Source: Kofleriaceae bacterium (GTDB lineage Bacteria; Myxococcota_A; Polyangia; Haliangiales; Haliangiaceae). From it: a stretch of DNA of 64,000 bases. Below, one piece after another: positions 18,657 to 56,319 of this stretch. Under the pieces are notes generated by a model. The model saw nothing but the letters and a program-made list of their open reading frames with translations, was not told where the DNA came from and did no database searches. The stretch spans positions 1 through 64,000 of the forward strand of contig JAGPCY010000034.1 of NCBI GenBank assembly GCA_018057825.1, given 5' to 3'. A program made the translations under genes and the position numbers. Positions within the stretch are counted from its first letter, which is position 1; the number at the start of each line of letters is the position of its first letter.

Positions 18657-18657
18657 C

Positions 18658-18875
<218 letters not shown>

Positions 18876-18986
18876 GCCTCGATCGCCACCCGCGCGCGGC
18901 GCAATCGGATCGGCTCGCGTCTTGCGCCGGCCGCCGCCGCGGCGTTACACCCCCAACCGCGCGGCCGCGTGGCCCGTGAGGTTGCG

Positions 18987-33409: not shown

Positions 33410-34537
33410 ATGACCCGCGATCCGGCCCGAGCCTCGCTCCTGACGCGTCGCACGACCAGGCGTGAGCAGGAGCGTGACCGTGCCAGGCGCCGCGGGAGCG
33501 CGCGGTGGGCATGCCGCTCGGGTTCGCCTTGGACACCGGGCCTGGCCCACGGTTCCCAGATCCTCGCGCTGGTCGGGCTCGCGGCGTGTGCCGACGGCCG
33601 AGCCGACGATCGCCCGGCGCGCCCGGCCCCCGGCCCGGCCGCACCGGCCGCCTCGACGCCGGCGCCGAGCGCCACGCCGCCCGCGTCGGCTGGGGGCGGC
33701 GAGACCTGCCTGGGCGTCGCGGATCGCGGCATCTGGAGCGATCTCGACGACCAGATCGCCCTGGCGTTGCCGACCGGGCTCACCCCGGCGCGGGTCCGCG
33801 TCACCCGCGACCCGACGCGCCCCCTCCTCGTCCTGTGGGTCGACGACTGGCCGACCAAGCCCTACCCCCTCGGCGGGCCGGCGACGCTGACGGTCGGCGA
33901 CCAGACCCTGGCGCTGCGCCCCGGCGATCGGGCCGAGCTGGCGCCGCTCCTCACCGCCGATCGCCTGACGGTCGCCGCCGCAACTCCCGACCGCGATCGC
34001 GACGGCCTGCCCGACGTCCTCGACGCGCTGATCGGCGCTCGCAAGACGGTCCAGAACGCCGACGCCTACCGCGGCGGCTACGAGTCGATCCCGTTCCCGA
34101 TGGGCGACGTCCCGCGCGATCACGGGGTCTGCACCGACGTGATCGTCCGGGCGCTGCGCAACGCCGGGATCGATCTGCAGGCCGCCCTCCAGGCCGACCT
34201 GCGGCGCGCGCGATCGGCCTACCCGATGGTCAAGGGCCGCGGCGACCCCAACATCGATCACCGCCGGGTGAAGACCCTCCTGCCCTACTTGCGTCGGCAC
34301 CTCGAGACCCACAGCCCGGCGATCGACGACCCCGCCGACCCGATCCGGCCCGGCGATCTGATCCTGTTCGACACCTTCCCGTCGCGATCGGGGCCGGATC
34401 ATATCGGCATCGCGTCGGAGCGGGCCGGCGACAGCGGCCTGCCGCTCATCATCAACAACTGGACCGACGGGACGGTGACGACCGAGATGGACCTCCTGGC
34501 CTGGGTGCCGGTGACCCACCGCTTTCGTCTGCGCTGA
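33410..34537 (+). CDS. DUF1287-family lipoprotein
   Basis: The C-terminal 190 residues match DUF1287 (YijF-like): GARKTVQNADAYRGGYESIP, GVCTDVIVRALRNAGIDLQ, DPNIDHRRVKTLLPYLRRH, IRPGDLILFD, HIGIASER and NNWTDGTV. The Cys-His arrangement (VCTD and DHIG) resembles NlpC/P60-like cysteine peptidases, so a peptidoglycan-related activity is possible though unproven. The first 65 residues up to VGLAAC (lipobox-like) are Arg/Thr-rich and unlike a normal signal peptide, so the true start may be further in; ATG 33410 is the best visible choice. Upstream of the VWA-FHA gene on the same strand, 67 bases away. Confidence 0.75.
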   Translation: MTRDPARASLLTRRTTRREQERDRARRRGSARWACRSGSPWTPGLAHGSQILALVGLAACADGRADDRPARPAPGPAAPAASTPAPSATPPASAGGGETCLGVADRGIWSDLDDQIALALPTGLTPARVRVTRDPTRPLLVLWVDDWPTKPYPLGGPATLTVGDQTLALRPGDRAELAPLLTADRLTVAAATPDRDRDGLPDVLDALIGARKTVQNADAYRGGYESIPFPMGDVPRDHGVCTDVIVRALRNAGIDLQAALQADLRRARSAYPMVKGRGDPNIDHRRVKTLLPYLRRHLETHSPAIDDPADPIRPGDLILFDTFPSRSGPDHIGIASERAGDSGLPLIINNWTDGTVTTEMDLLAWVPVTHRFRLR

Positions 34538-34604: not shown

Positions 34605-36134
34605 ATGGCTCGCCCGGTCGCGGTCCTGGGGCTGATCATGGCCGCGCTCGTCGCGGCGGCGCCGGCGCGCGCCGACGAGCGCGACCGCGCGACCATCGAT
34701 CGGGTGGACGTGCGGCCGTCGCCGATCCACGGCCTGGCGCGGATCCGCGCCCTGGTCTCGGCGACGACGCTGCAGGGCGCCCGGATCCCGGAGGCCGGCA
34801 AGCCCCAGGTCACCGTCAAGGTCGGCGGTGAGCGTCGACCGGCTTTGCTCGGGTTCGCGGCCCTGGGCGAGGTCGAGCTCAACCTGGTGATCGTGGTCGC
34901 GACCACCGACGTGTTCCGCGATCACCTCGACCGGGTCCGCGAGGCCATCGACGTCGGGCTGCTGACGCCGCTCGAGAAGCTCGGCCCGTCCCGGGTCCGG
35001 GTCGCGATCCTGGGCTACGGCGAGCGGACCCTGGGCCAGAAGAGCGTCGGCACGATCGCCGCCGCCCGAGCCGCGCTGGCCCGCCTGACCGTCGACGAGG
35101 TCACCCCCGAGGTCGCGCTGGTCGCCGCGATCGCCGAGGCCACCACCCTGGCCACCAAGACCAAGCCCAAGGCCGCCGGGGCGATGCAGCGCACCGCGAT
35201 CGTGATCGTGTCCGACGGCGACGGCATCCCCGCCGAGCCCGAGGCCCGCGCCAAGGTGACCAAGGTCGCCGAGGCCGCCGGCAAGAAGAACGTGCGCATC
35301 CACGCCCTGGGCTTCTCGCCGAGCCAGGCGCGGCGCCCGCTCCTCAACCTGGGCGAGCTGTCCAAGCAGTCGGGCGGGACGTTCCGCTGGGTCCAGACGG
35401 TCGAGGGCTTCGCGGTCGCCACCGAGCAGCTCGTCGATCAGCTCGCCCGGCAATACGTGGTCACCGCGCTGGTCGCCCCGTCGGAGCTCGAGGATCAGAA
35501 GCTGGCGGTGACGATCGACAACGGCGGCGTGCCGCTCACCACCGCGGCGCTGCGCCTGCCGCCGCCGACCTGCGCCAAGGAGGTCTGCGATCCCAACGCC
35601 TACTGCGTGCGCGGCGAGTGTGTGCCCCACGCTCGGCAGCCCAAGGCCGGCGCCCTGCGCTGGTTGCTCATCGGCCTGGGCGGTGGCCTCGGGCTGGTGG
35701 CGCTCGGGTTCGGCGGCCGCGCCGTGGCCCGGCGACGGCGCAGCCCTCGGCCGGCGTCGATCGCGCCCGGGGGCGCAGCGCCGCTCCCAGGGCCTGCGCC
35801 CGCGGCGCCGATGGCCCCCGCCCCGGCGCCGGCCGCGCCCCCCGGTGGCCCGGTCTTGATCGTGATGTCGGGCCCCGAGGCCGGTCGACAGATCCCGCTC
35901 CACCACGGCTTCGCCCTGGGCAAGGCGCCGGACAACCACCTGTCGCTGGCCCACGACGGCACCGCCTCGGGCCACCACGCCCAGATCACCTTCGACGGCG
36001 CGGCCTGGGTCCTGACCGACCTGGGCTCGACCAACGGCAGCTTCGCCAACGGCAACCGCATCACCACCGTCCGCCTGTTCCCGGGGATGACCCTCCGGCT
36101 GGGCTCCACCGACCTCCGCTTCTGGCAGGCCTAA
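34605..36134 (+). CDS. Periplasmic VWA / transmembrane / FHA protein
   Basis: A 509-residue protein with a signal peptide (cleavage near ARADE, residue 23), a von Willebrand A-like domain (about 88-290; VELNLVIVVATTDVF, VRVAILGYGE, TAIVIVSDGDGIP), a Cys-rich EGF-like knot (about 322-340, four Cys), one membrane helix (351-373) followed by RRRR, a Pro/Ala linker and a C-terminal FHA domain (about 420-509). The topology puts VWA in the periplasm and FHA in the cytosol. The VWA metal site DxSxS is degenerate (VVATTD). The FHA lacks the usual Arg residues (LGK and SGHHAQI) but keeps DLGSTNGSF. The next gene starts two bases after its stop, so the two are surely one operon. Confidence 0.87.
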   Translation: MARPVAVLGLIMAALVAAAPARADERDRATIDRVDVRPSPIHGLARIRALVSATTLQGARIPEAGKPQVTVKVGGERRPALLGFAALGEVELNLVIVVATTDVFRDHLDRVREAIDVGLLTPLEKLGPSRVRVAILGYGERTLGQKSVGTIAAARAALARLTVDEVTPEVALVAAIAEATTLATKTKPKAAGAMQRTAIVIVSDGDGIPAEPEARAKVTKVAEAAGKKNVRIHALGFSPSQARRPLLNLGELSKQSGGTFRWVQTVEGFAVATEQLVDQLARQYVVTALVAPSELEDQKLAVTIDNGGVPLTTAALRLPPPTCAKEVCDPNAYCVRGECVPHARQPKAGALRWLLIGLGGGLGLVALGFGGRAVARRRRSPRPASIAPGGAAPLPGPAPAAPMAPAPAPAAPPGGPVLIVMSGPEAGRQIPLHHGFALGKAPDNHLSLAHDGTASGHHAQITFDGAAWVLTDLGSTNGSFANGNRITTVRLFPGMTLRLGSTDLRFWQA

Positions 36135-36136
36135 CC

Positions 36137-38131
36137 ATGGGTGAACTGATCATCGCCGGCGAATCGGTGGCCGACCTCCTCGGCTCGAAGTTCGTCAACT
36201 TCCTGCAGCCGCCGTACTGGGACGCCACCTTCGAGGGGCAGCTCGAGCAAAACGGCGTGCGCAGGCCCGGGCTCCATCCGTACAGCGCCGAGGCCAAGAA
36301 CAAGGGCCTGCGACGCTACTCGACCCGTCCGGCGCTGCGCCGCATGGGGAAGGCCTCGGTGTCCGCGGCCCAGGCGGTGATCCGCAAGTTCATCCTCCAC
36401 CACGACGGCGTCAACAGCTCGGCGGTGTGCTGGAACGTGCTCCACAACGAGCGCGGCCTGTCGTGCCACTTCCTCATCGACAACGACGGCACGGTCTACC
36501 AGACCCTCGACCTGGCCCTCATGGGCTTCCACGCCGCCAAGTACAACGTCGACTCGATCGGCGTCGAGTTCTGCAACCGCGGCATCATCGACGGTCCGAA
36601 CGCGAACTACTACGACAACCACCCGTTTCCTCACAAGCTGTCGGAGGAGTACTCGATCAACGGCCACAAGCGCCGGTCGTGGGAGTTCACCGACGCGCAG
36701 TACGAGTCGTTCTACGAGCTGTCGAAGGTGCTGGTGCGGGTGTTGCCCAACCTGGCCCTCGAGTACCCGCGCGATCCGCAGCTCCCGACCAAGGCCGCCT
36801 GGGGCACCCTGGGCCCGGTCGACGCCCTGGGCGACAGCTACCCGGCGTCGTCGTTCGCCGGCTTCATGGGCCACTACCACCTGACCACCCGCAAGTGGGA
36901 CCCCGGGCCCTTCGACTTCAAGAAGTGGATCGATAAGCTGCGCGGTCAGCGGGTGTTCCCGGTGACCGTGGCCGGGGTCAAGAACCCCGACAAGCCGGTC
37001 ATCCCCGAAGATCCGGCGCAGCTCCCGGCGGCGATCCAGCCGTACTACGACGCCAACGAGATCAACGCCGGCGGCGGCTTCTTCCCGGTCGGGCCCTTCG
37101 GGGTGACCCGCCTGTGGCATGGCGGCGTCCACCTGCCAGCCGCCGAGGGCGTGCCGGTCTACGCGCCGTTCGCCGGCCGGGTGATCGCCGCGCGCATGGG
37201 TGGGTCGACCCCGATCGGCTCGAACAACTTCGTGCTCATGCGCCACGACCTGAGCGTCGCGTCGCAGGCCATCCGGGTCTACTCGCTGTTCATGCACCTC
37301 CAGGACGAGACCGGCACCACCGACGGCCCAGCCTGGATGGCGGCGCCGTCGCGCGACCTCGACGACTCGGTCGAGGTCCGCGGCTACGACGTGGTGGTCG
37401 ACGCCGGCGCGGTGATCGGCCGGGTCGGCACGGTCGGCCCCGACGACCTGGCGGCGCCGCAGGTCCACGTCGAGATCTTCTCGACCCAGCGGTGGTTCGA
37501 CGGCGGCGGCGACCCGGCGGCGTCGCCGTGGAAGCTGATCGACGGCTCGGCGACCGGCCGGTTCTGCGAGGACCCGCTGGTCAACGGCCTCATCGATCGC
37601 GACAAGGACGGCCGGATGTCGCGCGGCGAGCTGCGCGACTACTACGCCGGGCCCGACAAGGCGGCGACCCGCGACCTCATCACGCTGCACGTCTCGGAGT
37701 GGTCGCCGGAGCCCGACTGGAAGGAAGAGCTGACCGCGGCCGCGGCGCAGTTCAAGAAGAAGTCGCCCAAGCGCAAGGGCGTGTCGGCCGCGATCGACGA
37801 CGACGACGAGGACCTGAAGCTCGGCACGCTGATCGACGAGCAGCTCGCGCCGTTCACCTGGTGGACCGAGAAGGTCGCGAGCGGGCTCGGGCTGCCGGTC
37901 AACGGCACGGTCTTCCACTACCACCCCATCCGCTTCATCGAGTACGCCAACTCGGCCCACAAGCACGTCGGCGGGCCGGTCGCGGTCACCGGCAAGGTCC
38001 TCGACGACAACGACGACGTCGCCGGCGAGTTCGGCTACGTCGAGGAACCGCCGCCGCCGCCGCCCGATCTCCACTTCAAGCTGGAGAACCTGGTGGACGG
38101 CTACGCCGGCGATCCGGACAAGAAGCCATGA
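36137..38131 (+). CDS. Peptidoglycan amidase with degenerate M23 and EF-hand, no signal peptide
   Basis: A 664-residue cytosol-synthesised hydrolase. Residues about 80-265 form an N-acetylmuramoyl-L-alanine amidase (Amidase_2/PGRP) with complete zinc ligands: ILHHD (H88), GFHAAKYN (H132), GHYH and TRKWDPGPFDF (D255). Residues about 320-450 are LytM/M23-like, WHGGVHLPAAEGVPVYAPFAGR to PQVHVEIF, but the Asp ligand is His332 and one catalytic His is Gln442. At 487-498 is a perfect EF-hand loop (DRDKDGRMSRGE). The final 160 residues are unassigned. There is no signal peptide or holin, so export must be unusual (secretion system, lysis or the coupled microprotein). Its stop overlaps the next start (ATGA). 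Confidence 0.88.
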   Translation: MGELIIAGESVADLLGSKFVNFLQPPYWDATFEGQLEQNGVRRPGLHPYSAEAKNKGLRRYSTRPALRRMGKASVSAAQAVIRKFILHHDGVNSSAVCWNVLHNERGLSCHFLIDNDGTVYQTLDLALMGFHAAKYNVDSIGVEFCNRGIIDGPNANYYDNHPFPHKLSEEYSINGHKRRSWEFTDAQYESFYELSKVLVRVLPNLALEYPRDPQLPTKAAWGTLGPVDALGDSYPASSFAGFMGHYHLTTRKWDPGPFDFKKWIDKLRGQRVFPVTVAGVKNPDKPVIPEDPAQLPAAIQPYYDANEINAGGGFFPVGPFGVTRLWHGGVHLPAAEGVPVYAPFAGRVIAARMGGSTPIGSNNFVLMRHDLSVASQAIRVYSLFMHLQDETGTTDGPAWMAAPSRDLDDSVEVRGYDVVVDAGAVIGRVGTVGPDDLAAPQVHVEIFSTQRWFDGGGDPAASPWKLIDGSATGRFCEDPLVNGLIDRDKDGRMSRGELRDYYAGPDKAATRDLITLHVSEWSPEPDWKEELTAAAAQFKKKSPKRKGVSAAIDDDDEDLKLGTLIDEQLAPFTWWTEKVASGLGLPVNGTVFHYHPIRFIEYANSAHKHVGGPVAVTGKVLDDNDDVAGEFGYVEEPPPPPPDLHFKLENLVDGYAGDPDKKP

Positions 38132-38295
38132 CCCAGCCCCCGCCCAAGCCCAAGCCCCGGCTGTCGCGGCGTCGCCTGCTGGGCGGCGCCTTGACCGCGG
38201 CCCTGACCGCGGCCCTGGTCCCGCGCGACCAGTCCCGCCCCACGCCGCGCGGCGATCGCTGGCACGGCAAGACCCGCTGGATCGGCCACGCCTGA
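38128..38295 (+). CDS. 55-residue twin-arginine microprotein
   Basis: A 55-residue ORF whose ATG overlaps the amidase TGA (ATGA), which is strong evidence that it is translated. A Pro/Lys-rich start (MTQPPPKPKPR) is followed by LSRRRLLGGALTAALTAALV, a Tat-signal-like SRRxLL motif with a hydrophobic stretch, then 25 polar residues with RWHGKTRWIGHA. It may be a Tat substrate remnant, a small membrane anchor, or a holin/spanin-like helper for the leaderless amidase; none of this can be shown from sequence. No related family is recognised. Confidence 0.6.
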   Translation: MTQPPPKPKPRLSRRRLLGGALTAALTAALVPRDQSRPTPRGDRWHGKTRWIGHA

Positions 38296-38388
38296 CGCCC
38301 GGCTCGGCGTGACGCCGGCGTGACGCCGCGCGACGCATCGGCCGGCTCCTCACCGCCCGGCGCGCCGCGACCGGTGTATGGTCCGCCC

Positions 38389-39345
38389 ATGGTCCGTACT
38401 GCCATCGTCGTCCTGTCGTGCGCGCTGGCCGCTCCCGCGGCGGCCCAGGTCCTCCCCGACGAACCGTCGGGCGCCGATCCCGGCGCCGGCGGCGAGGCCG
38501 AGCTCGACGAGGATCCGACCCCGATCGGCGGCGACGACGACGGCGACGAGAACCCCGACGCCCCGCGGCTCCTCGGCGAGGACCCGGCCCCGGGGCCGAC
38601 CGCGCCGAAGGCGCGCCCCACCGGCTACCCGCGCGAGCTGGTGCTGCGGCCGCTGACCCTGCCCGACTTCACGTCGGAGATCGAGTTCGGCGCGTCGCTG
38701 TACCCGTCGCCGATCGACCTCGAGCTGGGCCTGCGGGCCCGCTACGGCATCACCCGCCAGGCCCAGATCGGCGTGCGCTACGCGATCGGCGGGCTGTACG
38801 ACGACGGCAAGAAGGACAAGGTCGGCTGGAACACCGGCAAGGCGGTGGAGATCAACTTCACCTACCTGGTGGCCGACTGGATCGCCCCGCGGGTGGCCAT
38901 CCCGATGTACGTCGATCCGTTCTCGATCGGCATGGTGGTGGGCGCGCCCATGCAGTTCCGGTTCGGCGACCGCTTCGCGATCGTCGGCTTCGAGGAGCTG
39001 GTCGGCTGGAAGTTCCAGGGCGACCGCTTCGTGCCCAGCCTCGACAGCGAGCGCGAGAACGAGGCGATCGCCGACAGCTTCGCGACCAACACGATCGCCA
39101 GCGACGGCTTCATCCAGCTCGACTTCGGCGCGATCTATCAGCTCGAGGCCAACCTGGCCTTGACCGGCCGCTTCGGCATCACCTTCGACGACTTCGCCGA
39201 CGACGATACCGCGTCGAACCTCCGGGTCCAGGTGCTGTACACCCCGATCCGCCGCCTCGATCTATCGGCGCTCCTCGGCTTCGACCGCCTCGACGAGGCC
39301 GACAACACCTTCCGCATCGCCGGCGGCGTGGCGATCCGGATCTGA
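38389..39345 (+). CDS. Secreted beta-barrel-like protein with acidic linker
   Basis: A 318-residue secreted protein. The signal peptide ends at APAAAQV (about residue 19). Residues about 20-65 are Asp/Glu/Pro/Gly-rich and disordered. From about 85 the sequence shows repeated amphipathic strands: EIEFGASLYPSPIDLELGLR, RQAQIGVRYAIGGLYDD, VEINFTYLVADWIAPRVAI, GAIYQLEANLALTGRFGITF and LRVQVLYTPIRRLDLSALLG, ending in AGGVAIRI. This fits an outer-membrane barrel of 10-12 strands without a C-terminal aromatic residue. Function unknown. Upstream genes are the amidase and its microprotein on the same strand (gap 93 bases), so membership in the same operon is possible. Confidence 0.75.
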   Translation: MVRTAIVVLSCALAAPAAAQVLPDEPSGADPGAGGEAELDEDPTPIGGDDDGDENPDAPRLLGEDPAPGPTAPKARPTGYPRELVLRPLTLPDFTSEIEFGASLYPSPIDLELGLRARYGITRQAQIGVRYAIGGLYDDGKKDKVGWNTGKAVEINFTYLVADWIAPRVAIPMYVDPFSIGMVVGAPMQFRFGDRFAIVGFEELVGWKFQGDRFVPSLDSERENEAIADSFATNTIASDGFIQLDFGAIYQLEANLALTGRFGITFDDFADDDTASNLRVQVLYTPIRRLDLSALLGFDRLDEADNTFRIAGGVAIRI

Positions 39346-43714: not shown

Positions 43715-46700
43715 TCAGGCCTGGCACAGGGCCGCGAGGGCGGCGTGGTCCTCGCTGACCGCGAACTGCACCAGGGCGGCGACCGCGGGATCGCGCAGCC
43801 CGCTGGCCAGGTCGCTGGCCCCGGCCCGCCCGAGGAGGACCGCCAGCGGGGCGGCCGCGCCACCGGCGGCGACCAGGCCCGCGCGGTGGCCGGCGTGCTG
43901 CAACCCGCGGTGCAGGACCCGGTGGTCGAAGGCCGCGGCGTCGATGGCCAGGGCGTGGGGTCGCAGCTCGGCCAGGAGCCCCGACGGGATCAGGCGCTTC
44001 AGGCGCTGGAGCTGAAGCCCGACCTGATCGTTGTCGACCAGGAGGTAGGGGAGCTCGGGCTGGAACAGCCGCAGGAGCGCGACCACCAGGACACCGAGCT
44101 CGTCCTCGGGCAGGCGGGCCAGGATCGCGAGGTGCGCGGTGGCCAGGCGCAAGGCCCCGGCGGCGGCGAACCGCACCGCGGCCAGGCGATTGCCGTCGGC
44201 GATCGCGCTGCCGATGACTAGCGACAGCGGGCTGGTCGGCTCGGCGACCATGGCGTAGGGCTGGCGGCTCGAGATGTAGACGTCGAGCTCGCCGAGCCCG
44301 AAGGCCTCGGCGACCTCCTGGGCCGCCGCCGCGACCGGGCTGTCCTTGGCGCGCACGCGATCGCCGCGGGTCACGCCGTAGGGGCGCAGATCGACGCCGA
44401 CGTGCTTGGCCACGCGATCGCCGAGGAGCGCGACGAGCTGGCGCAGGCCGGCGGACACCGCGGCCGGCCACAGGAGTTCATCGGCCTCGGCCCGGAGCAG
44501 GCCGCCGAGGTGATCGGGGGTCGGCACGCTGGCCAGCTCGGCGTCGGCGCCGGCCAGCCGGGCCAGATCGACCGCGGCGCGGTGGATGGCCCCCTGCCCG
44601 GCCACCCCGGCGTCGAGGCGCGCCCGGGCGACCCGGGCCAGGACGCGGTACGCGGTGGGATCGCTGCCGGTGGACGCGCGCTGTCGCATCGCCGCGGCGA
44701 CCATCCCGAGGTGGACCCGGATCGCGGCGGCGTCGCCGGCCGCCTCGTAGAAGCGGATGAGGGCCGACAGGGCGACGTCGCTGTCGGGCGCGGCGTCGAC
44801 GGCGAGCTGGTACGCGCGCTCAGCCTTGCGGCGATCGGCGAAGCCCTCGGCGAAGATCCGACCGACCCGGTGCAGGTGGGTGACCTTGCGCGCCGGCACG
44901 GTCTCGTTCTTGACCAGCCGCTCGCAGGCGCCGAGGGCCATGCGCCACTCGCCGGTGGCGATCCCGAGATCGGCGAGCCGCTCGAGGGCGGCCTCGTCGT
45001 CGGGGTCGTGGGCGAGCACGCGCTGGAAGGCGCGGATCGCGGCCGTCGGATCGGGCAGCCGATCGGCGTACACCATGCCGAGGCGGAAGTGGATGTTGCG
45101 CAGGACCCCCGGGTCGCGCTCGAGGCGGGCCCTGGTCTGGAGCGCGTCGGCGGCCTCGCCCCACGCGCCCTGCTCCCAGGCGATGTCCGACAGCGCCGCG
45201 ATCGCGCGCAGGTCGGCCGGGCTGTGCGAGACGATCGCCCGGTAGTGGCGCTTGGCCCGCTCGCGATCCTCGAGGAAGTTGCGGGCCAGCTCGGCGATCG
45301 CGCGGTGCAGCCCGATCTGCTCGCCGAGATCGGGCTCGACCTCGAGGCGGGCCTCGAGCAAGCCGGCCAGGGCCTCGTGCTCGCCCTGCTCGTCGAGCAG
45401 GAGCCGCAGGCGGATGAAGGCGTCGAGGTGCCGGGGATCGGCGGCCAGGGTCTCGCGCAGCGCGTCGACGGCGCGCTCGCCGGCCAGGGCGCGATCCATG
45501 AGCGCGACGCCGGCCAGGTGCCAGAGGCGAGCCTTGGTGGCGTCGTCGTCGGACAGCCCGGCCTCCTTGATCGCGGCCTCGGCGAAGTCGACCCAGAGCT
45601 GACCGCGAAGCGCGGCGTCGCGCCAGCCCTCGAGGGCCGGGGCGTAGCCGCCGCGCAGCTCGTTGGCCGCGCGGAAGTGCGCGAGGGCGTCGTCGAGGCG
45701 ACCGAGGTCGGTCAGGGTCTCGCCGGCCCGGGTCAGGAACGCGGCCCGGGTCCGCGGATCGGCGGCGAAGTACTCGGCGACGGCGTCCTCGAGGGCGACC
45801 AGCTCGGGCGAGGCCCCGCCGCGGCGGACCAGGCTCTCGAGGTGGAACAGCGGGCGGCGGGCCCGCGGCGCCTCGGCGAGGATGCCCTGGTAGACCGCGC
45901 GGAGCTCGTCCTCGGGGCGATCGAGCCGCTCGAGGACGAGCGCGCGATCGAGGGCGAGGGCGATGCGATCGGGGCCGGCCGGCTCGCCGGCGAGCTGGCG
46001 CTCGCGCAGGGCCGCGAGGTCCGCCCACCGCCCGGCGCCGTAGGCGCGCTCGAGCTCGCGGACCACCGCCAGCCGCGACGGATCGGCGGCGATCGCGGCC
46101 TCGATCGAGATCAGCGCGGAGGCGTCGTCGCCGCGCAGGCCACGGTCGATCGCGGCCAGCGCCTCGTAGGCGTCGGCGCGTCCGCGATCGTCGCCGGCTT
46201 CCTCGGCCAAGCGGAGCTCGGCCAGCGCCAGGGCGGTGATCGGGCCAGCCTCGCCGACGGCGTAGGCCACGCGCTTGAGGGGCTCGGCGGCGAGCGGATA
46301 GTGCGGCCGCAGCTCGAGGGCCTTGGCGAGGAGCGCGAGGGCGCCCAGGCCGTCGCCTTGAGACGCGAGGTGCTCGCCGTCGCGCACCAAGCGCGCGAAG
46401 CCGTCGCCGCGACTGCCGTCCTGGCGGGCCACGCGCGGCGCCGGGGCGGCGTCGCCCAGGCGTCGGCGGGCGGCGGCCAGCGCGTCGTGGACGAAGGCGA
46501 GCTCCGGATGATCGTCGGCCAGGCTGGCCAGGAGGGTGGCGGCGCGGCCGGGATCGGCGGCGCGGTCGAGGTAGAGCCCAGCGGCGCGGAAGCGCAGGAG
46601 GGCGGCCTCGATGGGCGCGCGCGCCGCGATGGCCCGCGCGCGCTCCTCGTAGGCGGCGGCGACGTCGCCCCATTGCCCCGCGGCGGCGCCGAGGGCGACG

Positions 46701-49700
46701 GTGGCGGCCAGGCGACGGGGATCGTCGCCACTGACCTCGCGGACGATCTCGTCGACGGTGTCCCAGCCGGCGCCGGCGGCGGCGGCGGCGCGCGCGCGGG
46801 CCAGCGCCAGCGTAGCGGCGGCGGCGGGCGACTCGGCGGCGGCCTGGGCGCGGGTCCACGCGGCGGCGATGGTCGCCGGGTCGCCGGTCGAGGCCGACAG
46901 CACCAGGGCTCGGGCCAGGGCGACCGCAGGATCGCCGCCGGCGTCGATGACCTCGCCCCAGGCGGCCAGGGCGCGGGCGATCGAGGCCGGATCGTCGGGG
47001 GTCGCGGCGGCGTCGGCGGCCGCGGCCGCCCGCCCGGTCCACAGCCGCGGCTCGACGCGCTCGTCGGAGCGCGCCGCGATCGCCGCCAGGAGGGCGGCGC
47101 GATCCGCCGGGCGCCCCACCGCCCCGAGGACGTCGGCCCAGGCGTCGGCGGCAGCGGGGCTGTCGACGTCGGTCGGAGATGGCACGAGGGCGGCCGCGGC
47201 GGCCAGGTCGCCCGCGGCGGCGAACAGCGTCGCCGCGCGGACGCGATCGAGCTCAGCGCCAGCGCCGGCGCTCACGCGGCCCTCCCAGACCCGGGCGGCG
47301 GCAGCGAACTCCCCGGCCGCCAGGTGGCCGTCGGCGAGGGCAGCCTGAGCCAGCACGTCGCCGGGCTCGGCGCTGAGCGCGGCCCGGTAGCCGGCGGCTG
47401 CGGCCGCGGCGTCGGGCGCGCGGTGGGCGGCCCACAGCGAGGCGGCGCGACGCAGCGCCGGATCGACGGCGCGCGCGGCCAGGGCGGCCAGCTCGGCGGT
47501 CGGCGGCTCTGTGCCGGCCATGGCCCGGCCGAGGACCGCGGCCTGGACCGTCGGATCGTCGGGGGCCAGCGCGGCGGCGCCCGCGAGGAGCGACGGCTCG
47601 GCGGCGGCGCCCTCGAGGAGGAGCGCGGCGCGGACCGCGGGCTCGGTGACCCGGTCGGCCAGGGCCGAGGTGGCGGCGGCCGCGGCGTCGCCGCGCAGCG
47701 CGCCCAGGTGGCCGGCCAAGGCCGAGGGATCGGCGGCGACCGCGGCGGCGAACGAGGCGGTGGCGCGCGGGCGATCGCCCTTGCGCTCGGCCAGGTGACC
47801 GCGGGCGGTGTCGACCGCCGCGCGCAGCGCGGGATCGGCGATGACCGCACCGAGCCGGTCGAGGGCCTCGTCGAGCTCGTCGGCGCGGCCGTCGAGGAAG
47901 GCCAGCTCGAGCTGGGCCAGGAGCGCGCGCACGTCGCCGCCGGCGGTGTCGAGGAGCTCACCGACCGCCACCCGAGCCAGGTCCTGCTCCGAGGCCGCCA
48001 TCAGCAGATCGACCCGATGCAGGGCCAAGGCCCGGCGCTCGAGGGGCCCGGCGACCCCGAGCTCGACGTCGAGGTGGGTCGTGGCCTCGGCGAGATCGCC
48101 GGCGCCGCGCGCGATCCGGCGCAGACCGCGCAGCGCCGCGGTGGCCCGCGGATCGGCGAGGAGCGCGGCGTCGTAGCTGGCGCGCGCGCGCTCGCCGTCG
48201 CCCAGGCGCTCATACAGCCGGCCGGCCTCGACGCGCAGGACCGCCTGCTGGTGAGGATCGTCGATGGTCTCGAGCTCGCGCTCGAGGCGCAGGATGCCGC
48301 GGGCCGCGGCCTCGCCCGGATCGAAGCCGGTGGTCGGATCGACCTGCTCCGGCAGCGCCAGCGCGTCGAGGTCGAGGCGCGGCAGCGCCGACGCGAACAG
48401 CGCCGCCGGCAGCGCGACGGCGGGCGCGATCGGCGACAGCGGCACCGGCGCCGCGGCGGCGGGCAGAGGCGCGACGGGAGCGAGCGGCGGCGTGGGCGCG
48501 GGCGCGGGCGCCGGCGCCGAGCCGACCGGGGCGACGAGCTCGGGGACCGCCAGCGCCCGCGGCGGCGGCGGCACGCCGATCTTGGTCTGGCCCGAGGCGT
48601 CGTCGGCGAACGGGTTGGCGACGACGACGGGTGGCGGCGGCGCCGGCGGATCCTCGACGACCGCGGTCAGCTCGACGTCGAGGTCGGGCTCCTCGGCGCC
48701 GATCGCGGGGAGGCCCGCCCCGTCGGCGTCGAGGGCCTCGTCGAGGGTCAGGGCGGCCGGCGCCTCGGGCGGGGCCTCGAGCACCAGCTCGTCGACCGCG
48801 GCCAGCGCGTCGTGGGCCGCCGCGGACGCCGCCGAAACCGGGTGAGAACCCGCGCCGGCGAAGGCGCCAGACTCGGCGATCGGCTCGGGCACGGCCTCGA
48901 CCACGCCATCGTGCAGGAGCGCCGCGATCGCCGGATCGGCGGCGGTGGGCGCCTCGGCGGACAGCTCGACCGCCGCCGGCTCGTCGGCCAGCGGCTCGTC
49001 GACCGGCGGCTCGTCGACCGCCAGCTCGACGGCGACCGGTTCGTCGGCGACCGGCTCGTCGACCGCCAGCTCGACCACCGCCGGTTCGGCGGCGACCGGC
49101 TCGTCGGCGATCGGCTCGTCGACCGCCAGCTCGACCACCGCCGGTTCGGCGGCGACCGGCTCGTCGACCGCCAGCTCGACCGCCGGCGCCGCCGGGGCGA
49201 CCCGGGCGAACCCCGGCGAACGCTCGCCGACCGGCGTGACCTCGTGGCCCGCGAACTCGGCGATCGCCGCGTCGAGGCCGAGATCGTCCTCGGCCGGCGC
49301 CGGCGCGCCGACGTCGAGGGCCAGCTCGGGCTCGTCGTCGATGGCCCCGACCGCGACGGGCCGCGGCGCCGGCGCCATCGTTGTGGACGGGCGGTCGCCG
49401 GGCCGGCGCACGACGTTCGACGTCACCCGGCGGGCCGAGGCCGGGGTGCCGGTCACCTCGTCGTCGTCGCCGCCGATCTCGATGTCGGCGTAGAAATCCT
49501 CGTCGGGGACGACCGGCTCAGGCGGCGGCTGGTAGCCGGTCGCCGGGGTCGGCCGCGACTGCCGCGGGTCCTCGCGCTGGGCCAGGCGCTCGAGCTCGCG
49601 GATGTCGGCGACCCGGGTCGACTCGGGCCCGGCGAAGCCTCCGGTGCTCTCGGGCCGCTTGCGCGCCGGGGGCCCACCGCGCCGCACGATCGACGGTCCC

Positions 49701-50788
49701 GCGCGCGGCGGCCGCTTGGCGGCGGCGCCGGCCTCGGCCAGGAGCTGGTCGTCGGGGTCGAGGATGCGCGTGCGGTTCGCGCGATCGAACGTGTCCTCGG
49801 ACGGATCGCGGCCGGGGTCCGACAGCTCGTCGCGGCGCGGAGTCAGCCCGCGATCCATGGTCTCGTCGATCTCGAACAGCTCGGGCGTCGCGCCGGCGAC
49901 CCGGGTCTCGTCCGGGCTGGCCCGGTGGGCCTCGCGCCGGAGCTGGTCGAGCTCGGCCGCCGAGGGCGCGAACGGATCGTCCTCGGGCTCAGCGGCCTCG
50001 AGCAGCGCCTCGGGCCGCACCGCCGAGGTCAGGACCTCGTCGTCGTCGAAGGAGGCCACCGCCGAGGTCGGCCCCAGCTCCTCGATCGGCGGCAGCGGCG
50101 GCGGCTGCCCGAGCAGCGAGCCCAGGGCCTCCGGCGGGCCGCTGAAGCCGAGATCGGAGAAGTCGGTCTCGTCGACGACCCGGGCCGACATCGGCGTCGG
50201 GCTCGGCACCGGCGTCGGCACCGGCGTCGGGGCCCGCGGTGGTGGCGGCGGCTGGGTCCGCGGCGCGGACCGGCGCGGCGAGGCGCTCGGCTCCGGCACG
50301 CGGGTGATGACGGTGACCGCCTCGACCGCCGGCGCGACTGGGCGCACCGTGACCGAGGTCGGGGCGTCGGCGACGGTCGGGTCCACCGGCCGGGCCGACA
50401 CCGTGGTCGGCGCATCGAAGGCGGCAGGCGACAGCGGCGCGGTCGTGACCACGGTGGCGTCGTCGAAGCTCGGACTGGCTGGACCCGCGACCGGCGGTCG
50501 CCCGGCCGCCGGCGCCGCCCGGGTGACGACCGAGGTCGGCCCGTCGAAGGTGGCGTCGCTGCCGGTGGCGGGCGGCGACCCCGGGCGAGGCGCCGTCGGC
50601 GCCCCCGGGCGAGGCGCGGTCGGCGAGACCGTGCGGGTCACCTCGTCGTCGCCGCCGTCGAAGGCGGCCGCCGGCGCGCCGAACAGGCTGTCGTCGACGT
50701 GCAGGGCGTCGAAGGTCTTGTCCCAGGCGTCGAGCTCGGCCAACAGATCATCGCCGAAGCCCGGCTTGTCAGAACCACCGGTGGTCAT
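43715..50788 (-). CDS. Giant TPR protein, 2357 aa, with unassigned C-terminal domain
   Basis: No signal peptide or membrane helix. Residues 1-820 are mostly disordered: a Thr-rich stretch (44-163) in which DAP/T-T-V-V-T-type motifs recur, Pro/Ala linkers, and an acidic repeat region (encoded at about 48960-49190) built on VELAVDEPVA-like units. From about 840 to 2090 the sequence is a long array of TPR-like helix pairs (AVLRVEAGRLYERLGDGERA, AERAYQLAVDAAPDSDVALS). The last 265 residues form a different, compact domain (RGDRVRAKD, GELDVYISSRQPYAMV, HRAGLVAAGG) shared with the upstream gene. ATG 50788 has GGAGGAG and overlaps the upstream stop. Probably a cytoplasmic scaffold; the process is unknown. 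Confidence 0.85.
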   Translation of the reverse strand: MTTGGSDKPGFGDDLLAELDAWDKTFDALHVDDSLFGAPAAAFDGGDDEVTRTVSPTAPRPGAPTAPRPGSPPATGSDATFDGPTSVVTRAAPAAGRPPVAGPASPSFDDATVVTTAPLSPAAFDAPTTVSARPVDPTVADAPTSVTVRPVAPAVEAVTVITRVPEPSASPRRSAPRTQPPPPPRAPTPVPTPVPSPTPMSARVVDETDFSDLGFSGPPEALGSLLGQPPPLPPIEELGPTSAVASFDDDEVLTSAVRPEALLEAAEPEDDPFAPSAAELDQLRREAHRASPDETRVAGATPELFEIDETMDRGLTPRRDELSDPGRDPSEDTFDRANRTRILDPDDQLLAEAGAAAKRPPRAGPSIVRRGGPPARKRPESTGGFAGPESTRVADIRELERLAQREDPRQSRPTPATGYQPPPEPVVPDEDFYADIEIGGDDDEVTGTPASARRVTSNVVRRPGDRPSTTMAPAPRPVAVGAIDDEPELALDVGAPAPAEDDLGLDAAIAEFAGHEVTPVGERSPGFARVAPAAPAVELAVDEPVAAEPAVVELAVDEPIADEPVAAEPAVVELAVDEPVADEPVAVELAVDEPPVDEPLADEPAAVELSAEAPTAADPAIAALLHDGVVEAVPEPIAESGAFAGAGSHPVSAASAAAHDALAAVDELVLEAPPEAPAALTLDEALDADGAGLPAIGAEEPDLDVELTAVVEDPPAPPPPVVVANPFADDASGQTKIGVPPPPRALAVPELVAPVGSAPAPAPAPTPPLAPVAPLPAAAAPVPLSPIAPAVALPAALFASALPRLDLDALALPEQVDPTTGFDPGEAAARGILRLERELETIDDPHQQAVLRVEAGRLYERLGDGERARASYDAALLADPRATAALRGLRRIARGAGDLAEATTHLDVELGVAGPLERRALALHRVDLLMAASEQDLARVAVGELLDTAGGDVRALLAQLELAFLDGRADELDEALDRLGAVIADPALRAAVDTARGHLAERKGDRPRATASFAAAVAADPSALAGHLGALRGDAAAAATSALADRVTEPAVRAALLLEGAAAEPSLLAGAAALAPDDPTVQAAVLGRAMAGTEPPTAELAALAARAVDPALRRAASLWAAHRAPDAAAAAAGYRAALSAEPGDVLAQAALADGHLAAGEFAAAARVWEGRVSAGAGAELDRVRAATLFAAAGDLAAAAALVPSPTDVDSPAAADAWADVLGAVGRPADRAALLAAIAARSDERVEPRLWTGRAAAAADAAATPDDPASIARALAAWGEVIDAGGDPAVALARALVLSASTGDPATIAAAWTRAQAAAESPAAAATLALARARAAAAAGAGWDTVDEIVREVSGDDPRRLAATVALGAAAGQWGDVAAAYEERARAIAARAPIEAALLRFRAAGLYLDRAADPGRAATLLASLADDHPELAFVHDALAAARRRLGDAAPAPRVARQDGSRGDGFARLVRDGEHLASQGDGLGALALLAKALELRPHYPLAAEPLKRVAYAVGEAGPITALALAELRLAEEAGDDRGRADAYEALAAIDRGLRGDDASALISIEAAIAADPSRLAVVRELERAYGAGRWADLAALRERQLAGEPAGPDRIALALDRALVLERLDRPEDELRAVYQGILAEAPRARRPLFHLESLVRRGGASPELVALEDAVAEYFAADPRTRAAFLTRAGETLTDLGRLDDALAHFRAANELRGGYAPALEGWRDAALRGQLWVDFAEAAIKEAGLSDDDATKARLWHLAGVALMDRALAGERAVDALRETLAADPRHLDAFIRLRLLLDEQGEHEALAGLLEARLEVEPDLGEQIGLHRAIAELARNFLEDRERAKRHYRAIVSHSPADLRAIAALSDIAWEQGAWGEAADALQTRARLERDPGVLRNIHFRLGMVYADRLPDPTAAIRAFQRVLAHDPDDEAALERLADLGIATGEWRMALGACERLVKNETVPARKVTHLHRVGRIFAEGFADRRKAERAYQLAVDAAPDSDVALSALIRFYEAAGDAAAIRVHLGMVAAAMRQRASTGSDPTAYRVLARVARARLDAGVAGQGAIHRAAVDLARLAGADAELASVPTPDHLGGLLRAEADELLWPAAVSAGLRQLVALLGDRVAKHVGVDLRPYGVTRGDRVRAKDSPVAAAAQEVAEAFGLGELDVYISSRQPYAMVAEPTSPLSLVIGSAIADGNRLAAVRFAAAGALRLATAHLAILARLPEDELGVLVVALLRLFQPELPYLLVDNDQVGLQLQRLKRLIPSGLLAELRPHALAIDAAAFDHRVLHRGLQHAGHRAGLVAAGGAAAPLAVLLGRAGASDLASGLRDPAVAALVQFAVSEDHAALAALCQA

Positions 50789-53700
50789 CGAGCTCCTCCC
50801 GTGACGCGCGCGCGCACCGCCGCGTGAGCCGCCGACACCGACCATCGCACGAGGTCGAGGGCGGCCGGGTCGAGGGCGCGGCCGCCGCGGCCGACGTCGA
50901 GGGCAGCCAGGGCGACCCCGAGATCGCCCCCGACGGCCAACCCGGCGCGATGGGTCGCGCCCAGCATGGCGGCGCGCCAGCGCGGCAGGTCGACCAGCTC
51001 GGCGACCCGCGGTCCGAGGGCCGCGACCGCCTTCTTGTCGCGGCGAGCGATGTGCTTGTCGATCAGCCGGGTCCGCTCGGCGAGGGCGGCGTCATCGCCG
51101 GCCACCGCCTGCGCCAGCGCCGGCGGCGGCGCCAGACCAGCGACCCGCAACCCGGCCACCACGTACCACGCGACCTCCGGCTCCTTCAGCTCGGCCAGAG
51201 CGGCCGACGCGTCGGCGAGCTGCTGGACCGCGCGCCCGAGGGCGAAGCGGGCCCCGGCAGTGGCGCCAGCGGCGACGTCGCTGCCGCAGCACAAGATCGG
51301 CGTGTCGGCCGACAGCACCCGCGCCTGACCGGCGCGGGCATCGCTGACGTAGAGCTCGACGTCGCCGACGCCGAAGGCCGCCAGCGCCGCGGCCAGGCCC
51401 TCGTGCTTCTTGCCCAGGGCCTTCAGCGCGACGCGATCGCCGCGGACGAAGCCGAGCTTGGCCGGATCGATCGCCAGGGCCGCGGTCACCGCCGGCGCCA
51501 GGGCCCGCCACAGCTCGGCCGCCACACCGCCGGCGCTGGGCGGGCGCAGCGCCGCGCGGGTCTCGGCGTCGAGGAGCTGCCGGGACAGCGGCGGCTGCGG
51601 CCGCTCGCGCCCGGCGGCGATCAGCGCGCGTTGCTCGGGCCGCGGCGCGCCCAAGGCCTCGAGGCCGACCAGGGCTAGCCACTGGCCATCGCGGTCGCCG
51701 GCCCAGCCGAACACCGTGGCCAGGCGATCGTAGAGCGTGAACGCGTCCGGGGTGGCGTCGATGGCGCGGCGGAGATCGGCGATGCCGCGGGCGAGGTAGT
51801 CGGCGCGGGCCGACGGCCGCTGGCTGGCCGCCAGCTCGACCTGATCGCGCAGCACGTCGAGGTTCTGGGGATCGAGCCCGCGGGCCCGCTCGAAGGCGGC
51901 CAGGGCCTCGTCGGGATCGCGGCCGTGATCGCGGGCGACCCGCCCCAGGCGCAGCTCGTCGCGCGCCCGCTCGGCCGCGCCCGGACGCTGGCGCGCGATC
52001 TCGCGCAGCTCGCGCATGACCCGAGGCCAGTCGCCGGCCTGGGTCGCCAGGCCGACCAGGCGCTCGCGCAGCGGCAGCTCGCTCGGGCGCTGCACGATGA
52101 CCCGCTCGACCTGCTCGATCGCGCCGACGACGTCGCCGAGATCTTCGGCCAGGGTCCGGGCCAGCACCAGCTCGGCCTCGGCCCGGGCCGCCGGCGCGGT
52201 CTCGACCGCGAGGTAACGACGCCACAGCTCGGCGGCGGCCGCGGCCTCGCCCAGCTCGCCGGCCAGCTCGGCCCGGCGCCGCAAGGCGTCGCCGTGCTCC
52301 GGGGCGCGGGCCAGGAGCGCGTCGAGATCGTCGGCGGCGCCGCGCTGATCGCCGACGGCGCGGCGCAGGGCCGCGCGCTCCGACAAGAGCTCGACGGCGG
52401 CCGCCGGTGGGCCGGCGCCATCGAGCCAGGCCAGGCGCTCGGTCAAGACCTCGACGAGCGAGCGGACGTCGCCCTTGCCGCGCAGGTGGATCATCAGGCG
52501 ATCGAACACCGGCGCACCTGGATCGTCGCGCAGGATCCGTCGGTAGACCGCGACCGCGGCCGGGATGTCGCGCCCGGGGCCGCGACCATCGAACAGCTCG
52601 GCGGCGCGGACCAAGAGCTCGCGGCGGGCCTCGGCGCCGACCGTCAGCTCGGCCAGCGCGACCGCGGCCCGGGCCTCGGTCGCGGCGTCACCGCCGCGGG
52701 CCGCCAGACGCAGCAGCGCCTCGAGCGCGCGGACGTCCTTGTCGTTGCCGCGCAGGACCGCCGCCACCGCCGCTGCCGCCTCGCGGAGGCGGCCGGCCGC
52801 CTCCAGGGCCTCGGCGCGATCGAGCTCCCAGCCATCGCGCGCCGCCGGATCGTCGGCGAGGGTCGAGCGCATCGCCAGGACCTCGGCGCGGGCGAGCAGG
52901 CGATCGACCGCGGTCGCGGTGTCCTCGCCGGCGGCCGGCGGCGCGGCGACCGCCTGCTGCTCGGCGGCGACCAGGAGCGCGCCGACGTCGTCCGGCGCGA
53001 CCGAGCGCGCGGCCAGCACCCGCGCCATCGCGGCGTCGTGATCGCCAGCCGCGGTCGCGATCGCGGCGCTGCGCAGGTGCAAGGCCGCCGCGGCCTCGGG
53101 CATCGTGACCTGCGCCGCCAGGCGCGCGAAGGCCTCGGCCTGGGCGACTCGATCCTGGCGCCGCGCGGCGACCAGGGCCGCGCCCAGGAGCGCGCCGGCG
53201 CTGGCGGCGCCGTCGACCTCAGCGGCCGCGAAGGCGTCGGCCGCGCGATCGAAGTCCTCGAGGACCAGGGCATGGAGCCAGCCGAGATCCTCGTGGAGCG
53301 CCGCGGCCAGCGCCGGCTGACCGGCGGTGCGCGCCGCCAGCGACTGCGCCGCGGCGATGCGGGCCACGGTGTCGCCGCGGGTCGCGGCCAGGCCGAGCGC
53401 GGCCAGCGCGGCCTGGGCGCCGGCCACCGAGCCCGGCGGGCAAGCGCCGTCGGCGCGGACGAAGGCCTCGGCGGCGTCGTCGATCTCGCCGGCGCGGACC
53501 CGGGCCTGGGCCCAGGCCAGGGCCGCCGCGCCGCTGTCGTCGGCGGCCAGCTCGAGGGTGCGGACCACGGTGCCGTGATCGCCGACCGCGGCCGCGGTGC
53601 GGACCGCGCCGGCCCGACCGTGGACGTCGTCGGGCGCGCGCTCGAGGAGCGCGCGGTACACCGCCAGCGCGTCGCGCGGACGCCCGAGCCGATCCTCGTA

Positions 53701-56319
53701 GAGCCAGGCCGCCTCGCGCAGCGCCGCCAGCACCTCGGGACCGTCGGCGAGGCCGTCGGCCTGGGCGCGCAGCGCGGTCGCCAGCTCGTCCCACCGCCCG
53801 GCCCGACGCAGGGCCGCCAGGAGCGCGCCGTGCGCGAAGCGATCGTCGGGCCAGTCGGCGACGGTGGCGCGGTAGAGGTCGATCGCCAGGTCGGTGGCGC
53901 CGGCGGCCTCGGCCAGGCGGGCGGCGGTGACCCGGGCGTAGCCGCGGCGCGCTGGATCGCCGTCGCGGCCGGCCAACGCTTGCAGGTGCGCGAGGCGCTC
54001 GTCATCGCGGCCGAGCTGCTCGAGGGCGGCGTCGATCCGCCAGGCCAGGGCCAGATCGTCGGGGGCGGCCTCGGCCTGGGCGCGATCGACCGCCAGCGCG
54101 TCGGCGACCCGCCCCGCGGTGCGGTAGAGCCGGCCCAGCCGGGCGGCGGCCTCGGGGCGCCCAGCCAGGAGCGCGGCGGCCAGGTCGATCCGTCCGGCCC
54201 GCTCGTGCAGCTCGACGGTGGCTTCGAGGGCGACCGGATCGTCGGGGGCCAGCTCTCGGGCCGCGCCGAGGGCGTCCTGGGCACCGCGGTCGCCGCGGTC
54301 GCCGCCGACGTCGAAGGCCCAGGCGTGGGCCGCGGCGAGGTACGCGGCGAGGGCCGCGGCCGGCTCGGGCGCTCCGCCCGCGCCCAGGGACTCGCCCAGG
54401 CGGGCGGCGTCGCCGGCCCGCTGCCAGGCCTCCGCCAAGGCGGCCGGATCGCCGACGCCGAGGGCGTCGCGCTCGCGCAGCGCCACCACCGGCGCCCAGC
54501 CGGGGGCGGTCGCCTCGAGGCTGGCCAGGACCGCCAGCGCCGGTTCGCGCCGGCCGGCCCGCAGGAGGGCGTCGGCGCGGCGGATCGACAGGGCCAGGGC
54601 CCGCGCCGGATCGCCTTCCACGGCTTGCCAGCTCTGCACCAGCTCCGCGAGTTCGTCGTATCGCCCGAGTTGCTCGGCCAGGTCAGCCAGGTCGGCCAGG
54701 AGGATCGGCTCGCCGGGCGCCGCCGCCATCGCCGCCTGGAGGTAGTCCCACGCCCGATCGCCGGCGGCCAGCGCCTGGGCGAGCTGGGCCTGGCGGCGCC
54801 GGATCGCCACCACCTCGAGGCGCAGCGCCGCGGCCCGGCCGGGGGCCTGGCCAGGGCTGGTCGCCGACAGCGCCGGGTCGGGCGCGCCGGCGGCGGCGGC
54901 CCGGGCCAGCAGATGCTCGGCGCTGGCGTCGAGGGCGAGCAGCATCTCCTCGCGGTCGCCGGCCAGCTCGGCCAGGCGCAGGCGCTCGCGGTCGACCCGC
55001 TCGCGATCGACGCCCAGCTCGGCGGCGCGCACCAGGAGCTCGCGCGCGCGATCGAGATCGCCGCCGCGCTCGGTCCAGAACCGCACCTGATCGAGCAGGT
55101 AGACCAGCTTGCGCTCGGGGCGGGCGCTGGCTTCGGCGAGCTGGGCCCACAGCTCGACCTGGCGCGCCGGATCGTCGGCGACGCGCTCGAGCGCCAGGAG
55201 CGCCGGCGCCGACCCCGGGGCCAAGAGCACGGCGTCCTCGAGGGCGGCCCGGGCGTCGTCCTGCTGGCCGAGCTTGTCGGCCAGGACCGCCGCCTTCTCG
55301 ATCGCCAGATCGGCGCGCTCGTCGTCGTCGATCGCGAAGCGCGACTCGGCGTCGATGAGCTTGATCAAGTTGGGCCACAGGCCGCGCCGGTAGAACACGC
55401 GGCGAATCGCCCACAGGTTGGCGCGCAGCGACGGATCGCTGGCCAGGGCGCGCCCGAAGGCCTTGACCGCGCGGGCCTCGTCGACCAGGCGGCGCTCGCA
55501 CAGCTCGCCGAGCTCGTAGGCGACGTCGGCCACGCGCTCGCGATCGGTCTCGATCTCGAGGCGGCGGGTCAGCTCGGCGGCCCGCTCTTCCCAGGCGGCC
55601 TCGCCGAGATCGCCCAGGGCGCGCTCGATCGCGGTCGGCGATTCGAGGCGATGCTCGATCGGCAGCTCGATCGGCGGTGGCGGCGAGGACGGCGGCGGCG
55701 GTGGCACCGGGGGCTCGGGCAGCGGCACCACACCCGACACCTCGGACACCTCGCCGAGATCGACGGTGTCGATCGGGATCGCGACGTCCGACACCGGATC
55801 GTACTCGGGCGCATCGTCCCCCGCGTCGGCCGGAGCCGCGGGCGCGGGCGCGGCCGCCGCGACCGGCGGCGGCACGGGCGGGATCGCCATCGGCGGCGCC
55901 GGCGGCCGGACCGGCGGGATCACCGCCGGCGGGCGAGGTGGTGGCCGCAGCGACGGCACCGGCGGCAGCGGCGGGCGCCGCGGGATCGCGATCGGCGGCG
56001 GCGCCGCCGGCTCGGCGTCGACCGCGACGTCGTCCATCGACAGCTCCTCGTCGTCGCCGACCTCGACCGCGACGCCGTCGTCGCCCTCGACCGCGGCCCC
56101 GCCGTCCGGGCCGTCCGCTGCGGCCTCGTGCGCGGCGACCTCGTGGAGGACGCCGGCCGCGGCGCCCTCATCCTCGTCGAGGCTGGCCATCAGGGCGTCG
56201 ATGCGCGACGCCATCCCGGGGGCTGGCGCCGCGACCGGCGCGGGGTCGGCCCCCTCGACCTCGCGCTGGTCTCCTGCTCCTGCCGTATCTGGCGCGCCGG
56301 GCTCCGAGGGGTTCGACAC
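50785..56319 (-). CDS. Giant TPR protein, 1844 aa, paralogue of the next gene
   Basis: Architecture parallels its neighbour: a disordered Pro/Asp/Ala-rich head (about 1-230, with an [17 protein letters not shown] segment and acidic stretches), then about 1350 residues of TPR-like helical repeats ([39 protein letters not shown]), then the shared C-terminal domain (about 1610-1844; [41 protein letters not shown]). It has no secretion signal. GTG 56319 is the start; the stop overlaps the next ATG (ATGA), so the two giants are made together, probably in defined ratio. It is divergent from hutH. Family and function not recognised beyond TPR. Confidence 0.84.

Follow-up and report, generated by a model that had tools for sequence, protein, structure and literature searches.

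A co-translated Tat-type microprotein as candidate export partner of a leaderless peptidoglycan hydrolase in a Kofleriaceae bacterium

We analysed a window of 64,000 nt from a Kofleriaceae bacterium (GenBank assembly GCA_018057825.1, contig JAGPCY010000034.1, positions 1 to 64,000 of the forward strand), in which three consecutive genes encode a membrane protein with VWA and FHA domains joined by a transmembrane (TM) helix (gene 1), a leaderless peptidoglycan hydrolase (gene 2) and a microprotein (gene 3; Table 1). From comparison of sequences and structural models, we consider it probable that the microprotein combines a detached twin-arginine translocation (Tat) signal with a docking peptide and that, within an envelope-remodelling operon, it carries the folded hydrolase out by hitchhiker export. 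With somewhat less assurance we also favour the reading in which the folded, leaderless hydrolase is exported in trans by a free-standing Tat signal that ends in a short docking tag; this would be a minimal adaptor, without a folded domain of its own, that a signal in cis can replace in evolution. The host genome (G000; 8.9 Mb, 99.7 % complete) encodes TatC, and its relatives in our collection are Kofleriaceae/Myxococcales metagenome-assembled genomes (MAGs). Comparisons at the level of the order were made in 35 genomes, 26 of which carry the gene 2 hydrolase.

The three genes all lie on the plus strand, with 2 nt between genes 1 and 2 and an ATGA overlap between genes 2 and 3. An earlier reading made from the letters alone (the sequence-only reading) had taken this spacing to mark one translational unit; its coordinates and the coupling were both confirmed, and the three-gene order, by whose conservation it proposed to check the idea, is kept in relatives, the microprotein being encoded directly 3′ of the hydrolase in all 26 order-level genomes that bear the latter. 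The overlap is exactly 4 nt in 23 of the 25 linked loci checked (15 ATGA, 8 GTGA), with the microprotein start lying 20 nt inside, or 41 nt beyond, the hydrolase stop in the remaining two. Most of the order-level microproteins were found by their WIGH pattern; that of locus L056, which ends in W-F-G-H-Y, was found by inspection, and in L059 the twin-arginine part is masked by N. In one genome (G018; L058:4932–9145) the microprotein sits between two tandem hydrolase copies, the second of which, following the microprotein, is leaderless and bears the C-terminal tail described below as well. On the other side, a VWA-FHA gene lies directly 5′ of the hydrolase in all fetched order-level loci with a readable upstream side (L051 and L056 were read by hand), and in family f3 (L060) it still precedes the hydrolase, although the outer neighbours differ.

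The product of gene 2 begins with an Amidase_2 domain (PF01510; residues 81–258; E = 2e-17, 64.1 bits against a cut-off of 26), whose zinc ligands (His, His and Asp: H88/H89, H246 and D255) are invariant in the alignment. This is followed by an M23/LytM-like domain (residues ∼327–450), an EF-hand loop (DRDKDGRMSRGE), a conserved C-terminal region and, at the end, an acidic low-confidence linker (∼610–645) and a tail helix (649–654). The AlphaFold model (predicted local distance difference test, pLDDT, 76.8) has structural matches to AmpD and LytM. The intact zinc amidase and the EF-hand loop of the sequence-only reading were thereby recovered, as was its LytM-like domain in so far as Peptidase_M23 (PF01551) barely passes its cut-off (29.3 versus 28.7 bits); the site itself, however, is altered across the clade, with HxxxH for HxxxD and QxH for HxH (window ∼37100–37500), which would mean either a changed zinc site or a loss of peptidase activity. 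Signal peptides were judged by the maximum hydropathy of any 12 residues within the first 40. By this measure all of the 26 aligned order-level hydrolases are leaderless (0.17–1.75), none having the N-terminal signal that had already been found missing from the window copy, and 12 hydrolases from other families gave values of 0.46–1.27. A hidden upstream start that would give gene 2 a signal was considered and rejected, as the start is conserved and the upstream codons read through gene 1. At the other end of the protein, the tail follows the clade consensus LxLExLxxG[YFW], the window copy having F at the first position. The strict motif is present in 38 of 39 hydrolases of the microprotein clade and in none of seven signal-peptide-bearing orthologues, with 0.016 expected by shuffling, and the last 60 residues carry a mean charge of −8.8 in the microprotein clade versus −1.9 in family f17, to which those orthologues belong.

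Gene 3 specifies MTQPPPKPKPRLSRRRLLGGALTAALTAALVPRDQSRPTPRGDRWHGKTRWIGHA, in which an SRRRLL Tat-type signal (residues 12–31) is followed by a basic linker and a C-terminal WIGHA. Across an alignment of 35 copies the mean column identity is 24 %, and invariance is confined to Met1, the twin Arg and W.GH (the end reads W-[I/F]-G-H-x, or W-L-G-H-C in G109); for the rest, the N-terminus is polar, a stretch of moderate hydrophobicity has basic flanks and the linker is variable and basic, the C-terminal part having a mean charge of +3.3. The sequences agree with the Tat pattern of [S/T]RRx[FL][LVI] before a moderately hydrophobic stretch, in that RR is invariant and the best hydrophobic 12-mers reach 1.65–2.97. 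Additionally, the NCBIfam Tat-signal model (TIGR01409) is matched by 24 of the 35 copies at E ≤ 1, the window copy narrowly passing its cut-off (17.1 versus 16.7 bits), and Pfam TAT_signal matches 11 of the 35. Weaker genome hits of the microprotein profile are leaders of longer proteins, ten of which Pfam identified as redox enzymes (molybdopterin oxidoreductases, amine oxidases and a multicopper oxidase), a DUF362 protein and DUF1552 proteins. In seven close pairs of gene 3 the third codon positions are the most changed, as a coding frame predicts, with positions 1 and 2 changing too, and conservation in 35 copies, including the L056 copy on a contig of 51 % G+C, rules out a chance open reading frame (ORF). 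As such, the SRRxLL-type microprotein that had been picked out from the letters is real, and scoring identifies its N-terminus as a Tat signal. The window's genome holds no W.GHx paralogue, a second pattern match ending in TGG without a stop. Pairing of cysteines between the microprotein end and the hydrolase tail was likewise set aside, the presence of Cys not being correlated between the two.

Microprotein and hydrolase are inherited together even where their genes are unlinked. Elsewhere in the class the two genes mostly lie apart (G291, G349, G358, G378, G421, G425, G432, G436 and, with the W-L-G-H-C end, G109); in G440 the microprotein gene lies near the hydrolase on the opposite strand and in G362 directly 3′ of it. 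Outside the order, it was found in 11 of 15 genomes with a tailed-type hydrolase, and in nine out of nine of those at least 90 % complete, versus 0/11 in f17 and 0/13 among genomes that have no hydrolase (0/24 in total), with the profile search scoring a limited number of candidates per genome. Contig ends cut the hydrolase in G421 (tail unreadable) and G449 (N-terminus unreadable), and pattern matches in the hydrolase-free G021 and G033 had, on reading, no twin-arginine signal. Thus, a leaderless cargo and a signal-bearing partner are passed on as a pair, as in hitchhiker export.

The orthologues of f17 form a well-supported sister clade, with 33 % identity over the hydrolase body. All eight of the f17 N-termini read start with a Sec-like signal peptide, a term that here denotes a high hydropathy maximum (2.10–2.55 versus 0.17–1.75 in the order set). 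At the same time the tail motif is missing (0/7), there is no microprotein, and a VWA-FHA neighbour is almost never present (one partial FHA match, L234). Because the outgroup classes are leaderless, the most parsimonious course is for f17 to have acquired its signal in cis and to have dropped the tail. Read from the sequences, this swap argues that the hydrolase belongs outside the cytoplasm, since its sister orthologues bear a Sec-like signal peptide, and suggests the tail as the place where the partner binds; the label 'unsecretable-looking', which the sequence-only reading had given to the enzyme, is probably wrong in substance.

We propose that the hydrolase, synthesized without a leader, folds in the cytoplasm, and that the W[I/F/L]GHx C-terminus of the co-translated microprotein would dock on it, most likely at the acidic C-terminal tail with its LxLExLxxG[YF] helix, our candidate docking site. 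The acidic tail and the basic microprotein end would fit such docking, charge alone being weak evidence. The twin-arginine N-terminus would then bring the folded complex to the Tat translocase, and the hydrolase would hitchhike into the periplasm, where the hydrophobic segment of the microprotein might keep it tethered to the inner membrane, whilst the VWA-TM-FHA protein probably controls or positions the enzyme across the membrane.

A number of observations weigh against this proposal. Eleven of the 35 microproteins have no match to the Tat-signal model at E ≤ 1, and the tail helix is modelled at low confidence (pLDDT ∼57). Four hydrolase-bearing genomes, all draft MAGs 51–83 % complete, yielded no microprotein; search depth differed among genomes, five of the hydrolase-free ones being searched by pattern only; and the Fisher test on 11/15 versus 0/24 (p = 8e-7) treats related genomes as independent, so that its p value is only a guide. 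Moreover, the f17 branch is long (1.13) and lies outside the microprotein clade, and the microprotein may have arisen after the f17 split rather than having been lost in f17. Leaderless homologues in other classes (L250–L269, L108–L125) have a different tail, PGEW or QGEWPxE, and no linked Tat-type or W.GH microprotein was recognized beside them. As these proteins are leaderless, end in a ..GEW.. tail and lack a recognized microprotein, another export route must exist in the outgroup classes, where another adaptor may serve.

Of the other explanations, the one that survives best, although we regard it as unlikely, is that the microprotein is a membrane anchor or inhibitor, held in the inner membrane by its Tat-type segment and holding or blocking the hydrolase with its W.GH tail (for example, with the invariant His in a zinc site), the enzyme leaving by another route or on lysis. 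Zinc could be bound by the C-terminal His, which is invariant, and by the Cys that is often terminal, the M23 site is altered and is without the first His of HxH, and the microprotein has retained its hydrophobic segment with basic flanks; however, export of a leaderless enzyme is left unexplained, and f17 orthologues with their own signal peptide manage without the microprotein, though they would still need control. We give still less credence to cytosolic storage, in which lysis would release the hydrolase, or a type VI secretion system (T6SS) or similar would deliver it as an effector, with the VWA-FHA protein as gate. The VipB sheath gene is absent from G000 and occurs in only G001 among the 26 hydrolase-bearing order genomes, which leaves a T6SS effector without support, and the f17 orthologues carry Sec-like signal peptides; in favour of storage are the leaderless N-terminus, the two wall-cutting domains and the match of PHROGs phage endolysin/amidase families to the amidase domain, set against which a tblastn search of 50,697 phage records gave no match and a phage origin was rejected. 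Very improbable, finally, is an exported signalling peptide, cleaved after translocation, with the W.GHx end as a signal perhaps sensed by the VWA domain: a short variable linker before a fixed C-terminal pentapeptide and a VWA domain modelled as periplasmic would suit it, but several microprotein-positive f9 genomes have no VWA-FHA gene beside hydrolase or microprotein, co-occurrence tracks the leaderless hydrolase, and unfolded peptides do not usually travel by Tat.

The product of gene 1 runs from an N-terminal signal through a periplasmic VWA fold, four conserved Cys, a single TM helix (residues ∼350–377) and a Pro/Ala linker to a cytosolic FHA domain (438–500; 54.3 bits versus a Pfam cut-off of 20.7). 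AlphaFold (pLDDT 84.2) models a VWA fold and an FHA fold connected by one helix, and Foldseek matches the former to VWA and integrin I domains and the latter to FHA domains, in agreement with the architecture first read from the letters; the metal-ion-dependent adhesion site (MIDAS) motif DxSxS is present in only one of 23 homologues. In f37, a family of another class, a VWA/FHA gene also precedes leaderless hydrolases and no W.GH microprotein was found; the pairing of VWA-FHA protein and hydrolase therefore seems to predate the microprotein, and what gene 1 controls may be the hydrolase and not the adaptor. Genome-wide, G000 has 88 FHA-domain matches, an FHA-rich signalling repertoire, and a second FHA gene lies inside the window (13253–14194).

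The neighbours of the trio (Table 1) include a DUF1287 protein, whose start is uncertain and possibly as early as 33332; the family has been assigned to the NlpC/P60-CHAP-amidase group (PMC10318531). Downstream, the cluster cl3 protein, for which a Pfam search gave no family, is putatively outer-membrane-like, and a PD40 propeller protein and an FGE-sulfatase-like protein are also often found in the neighbourhood. The biological occasion for release of the enzyme may be remodelling of the wall, since this part of the sequence-only reading fits the neighbourhood; delivery by a T6SS is not supported. Elsewhere, the window contains two adjoining very large ORFs on the minus strand (43715–56214) of 2357 aa (weak TPR match) and 1809 aa (without a Pfam match), and a short minus-strand ORF of repeated Glu-Thr/Ala units (18653–18889) that is probably a repeat rather than a gene.

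Table 1. Features of the trio and its flanking genes in the 64,000 nt window
Feature	Coordinates	Strand	Basis
Gene 1, VWA-TM-FHA membrane protein	34605..36134	+	Pfam FHA, AlphaFold and Foldseek, alignment
Gene 2, leaderless peptidoglycan hydrolase, 664 aa	36137..38131	+	Pfam, alignment, AlphaFold, hydropathy
Conserved tail of gene 2, FKLENLVDGY, residues 647–656	38075..38104	+	Motif count versus shuffling
Junction of genes 2 and 3 (ATGA stop/start overlap)	38128..38131	+	Exact 4-nt overlap in 23/25 linked loci
Gene 3, 55-residue microprotein	38128..38295	+	Tat-signal model, invariant RR and W.GH
DUF1287 neighbour, probable envelope partner	33767..34537	+	Pfam DUF1287 (5e-40); conserved beside the trio in most order-level loci
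Signal-bearing neighbour (cluster cl3)	38374..39345	+	N-terminal signal; adjoins the trio in most order-level loci

If export in trans is correct, a bacterial export signal can exist as a microprotein of its own, which recognizes its cargo by a short C-terminal tag, and some leaderless proteins annotated as 'cytosolic' are in fact exported, having been overlooked by gene-by-gene signal prediction. It would also introduce an extra control point on peptidoglycan hydrolysis, as enzyme release could be limited by how much microprotein there is or by its binding. The RR pair, the W.GH tag and the tail helix would provide three handles on how Tat takes cargo in trans, and the unexplained ..GEW.. tails in other classes suggest further adaptors.

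Parts of this arrangement resemble known systems. TIGR02811 ('formate dehydrogenase region TAT target') describes a tiny Tat-signal protein with a short conserved motif at its C-terminus; the model weakly matches ten of the 35 microproteins (best E 0.0017). That motif and the gene neighbourhood are different, the window copy has no match, and the neighbours examined include no formate dehydrogenase. The folds of the two hydrolase domains of gene 2 are those of AmpD/AmpDh2 and of LytM/Csd-type enzymes, from which it is set apart by the way its domains are combined, by the altered M23 site and by its C-terminal region and tail. AmiA and AmiC belong to another amidase family, Amidase_3. They are Tat-exported peptidoglycan amidases (PMC6231687) and, unlike gene 2, carry the signal in cis. 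A small helper encoded beside a Tat-secreted metalloenzyme is also seen in the MelC1/MelC2 tyrosinase caddie system (PMC3817396), the MelC1-type model matching only one of the 35 microproteins, and weakly (E 0.055). Searches of the open-access literature returned no description of the trio, of a signal-only partner this small, or of one for a wall hydrolase. The closest likeness is to Tat hitchhiker export, established for HybOC and PaoABC (PMC4273604) and proposed with a structure for BcGDH gamma/alpha (PMC6719666). In HybO/HybC, PaoABC and BcGDH, one twin-arginine partner and a leaderless partner are exported folded in complex, as we propose here from the genes; their signal-bearing partners, however, are folded subunits (the mature part of BcGDH gamma has 121 aa, and PaoA is 21 kDa), whereas the microprotein has ∼15–40 residues after its hydrophobic segment, terminating in W.GHx, and its cargo is a wall hydrolase. 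The kind of export is therefore known, and, provided that the trans-export reading, towards which we lean slightly, is right, a signal-only microprotein partner for a wall hydrolase would be a new variation on it.

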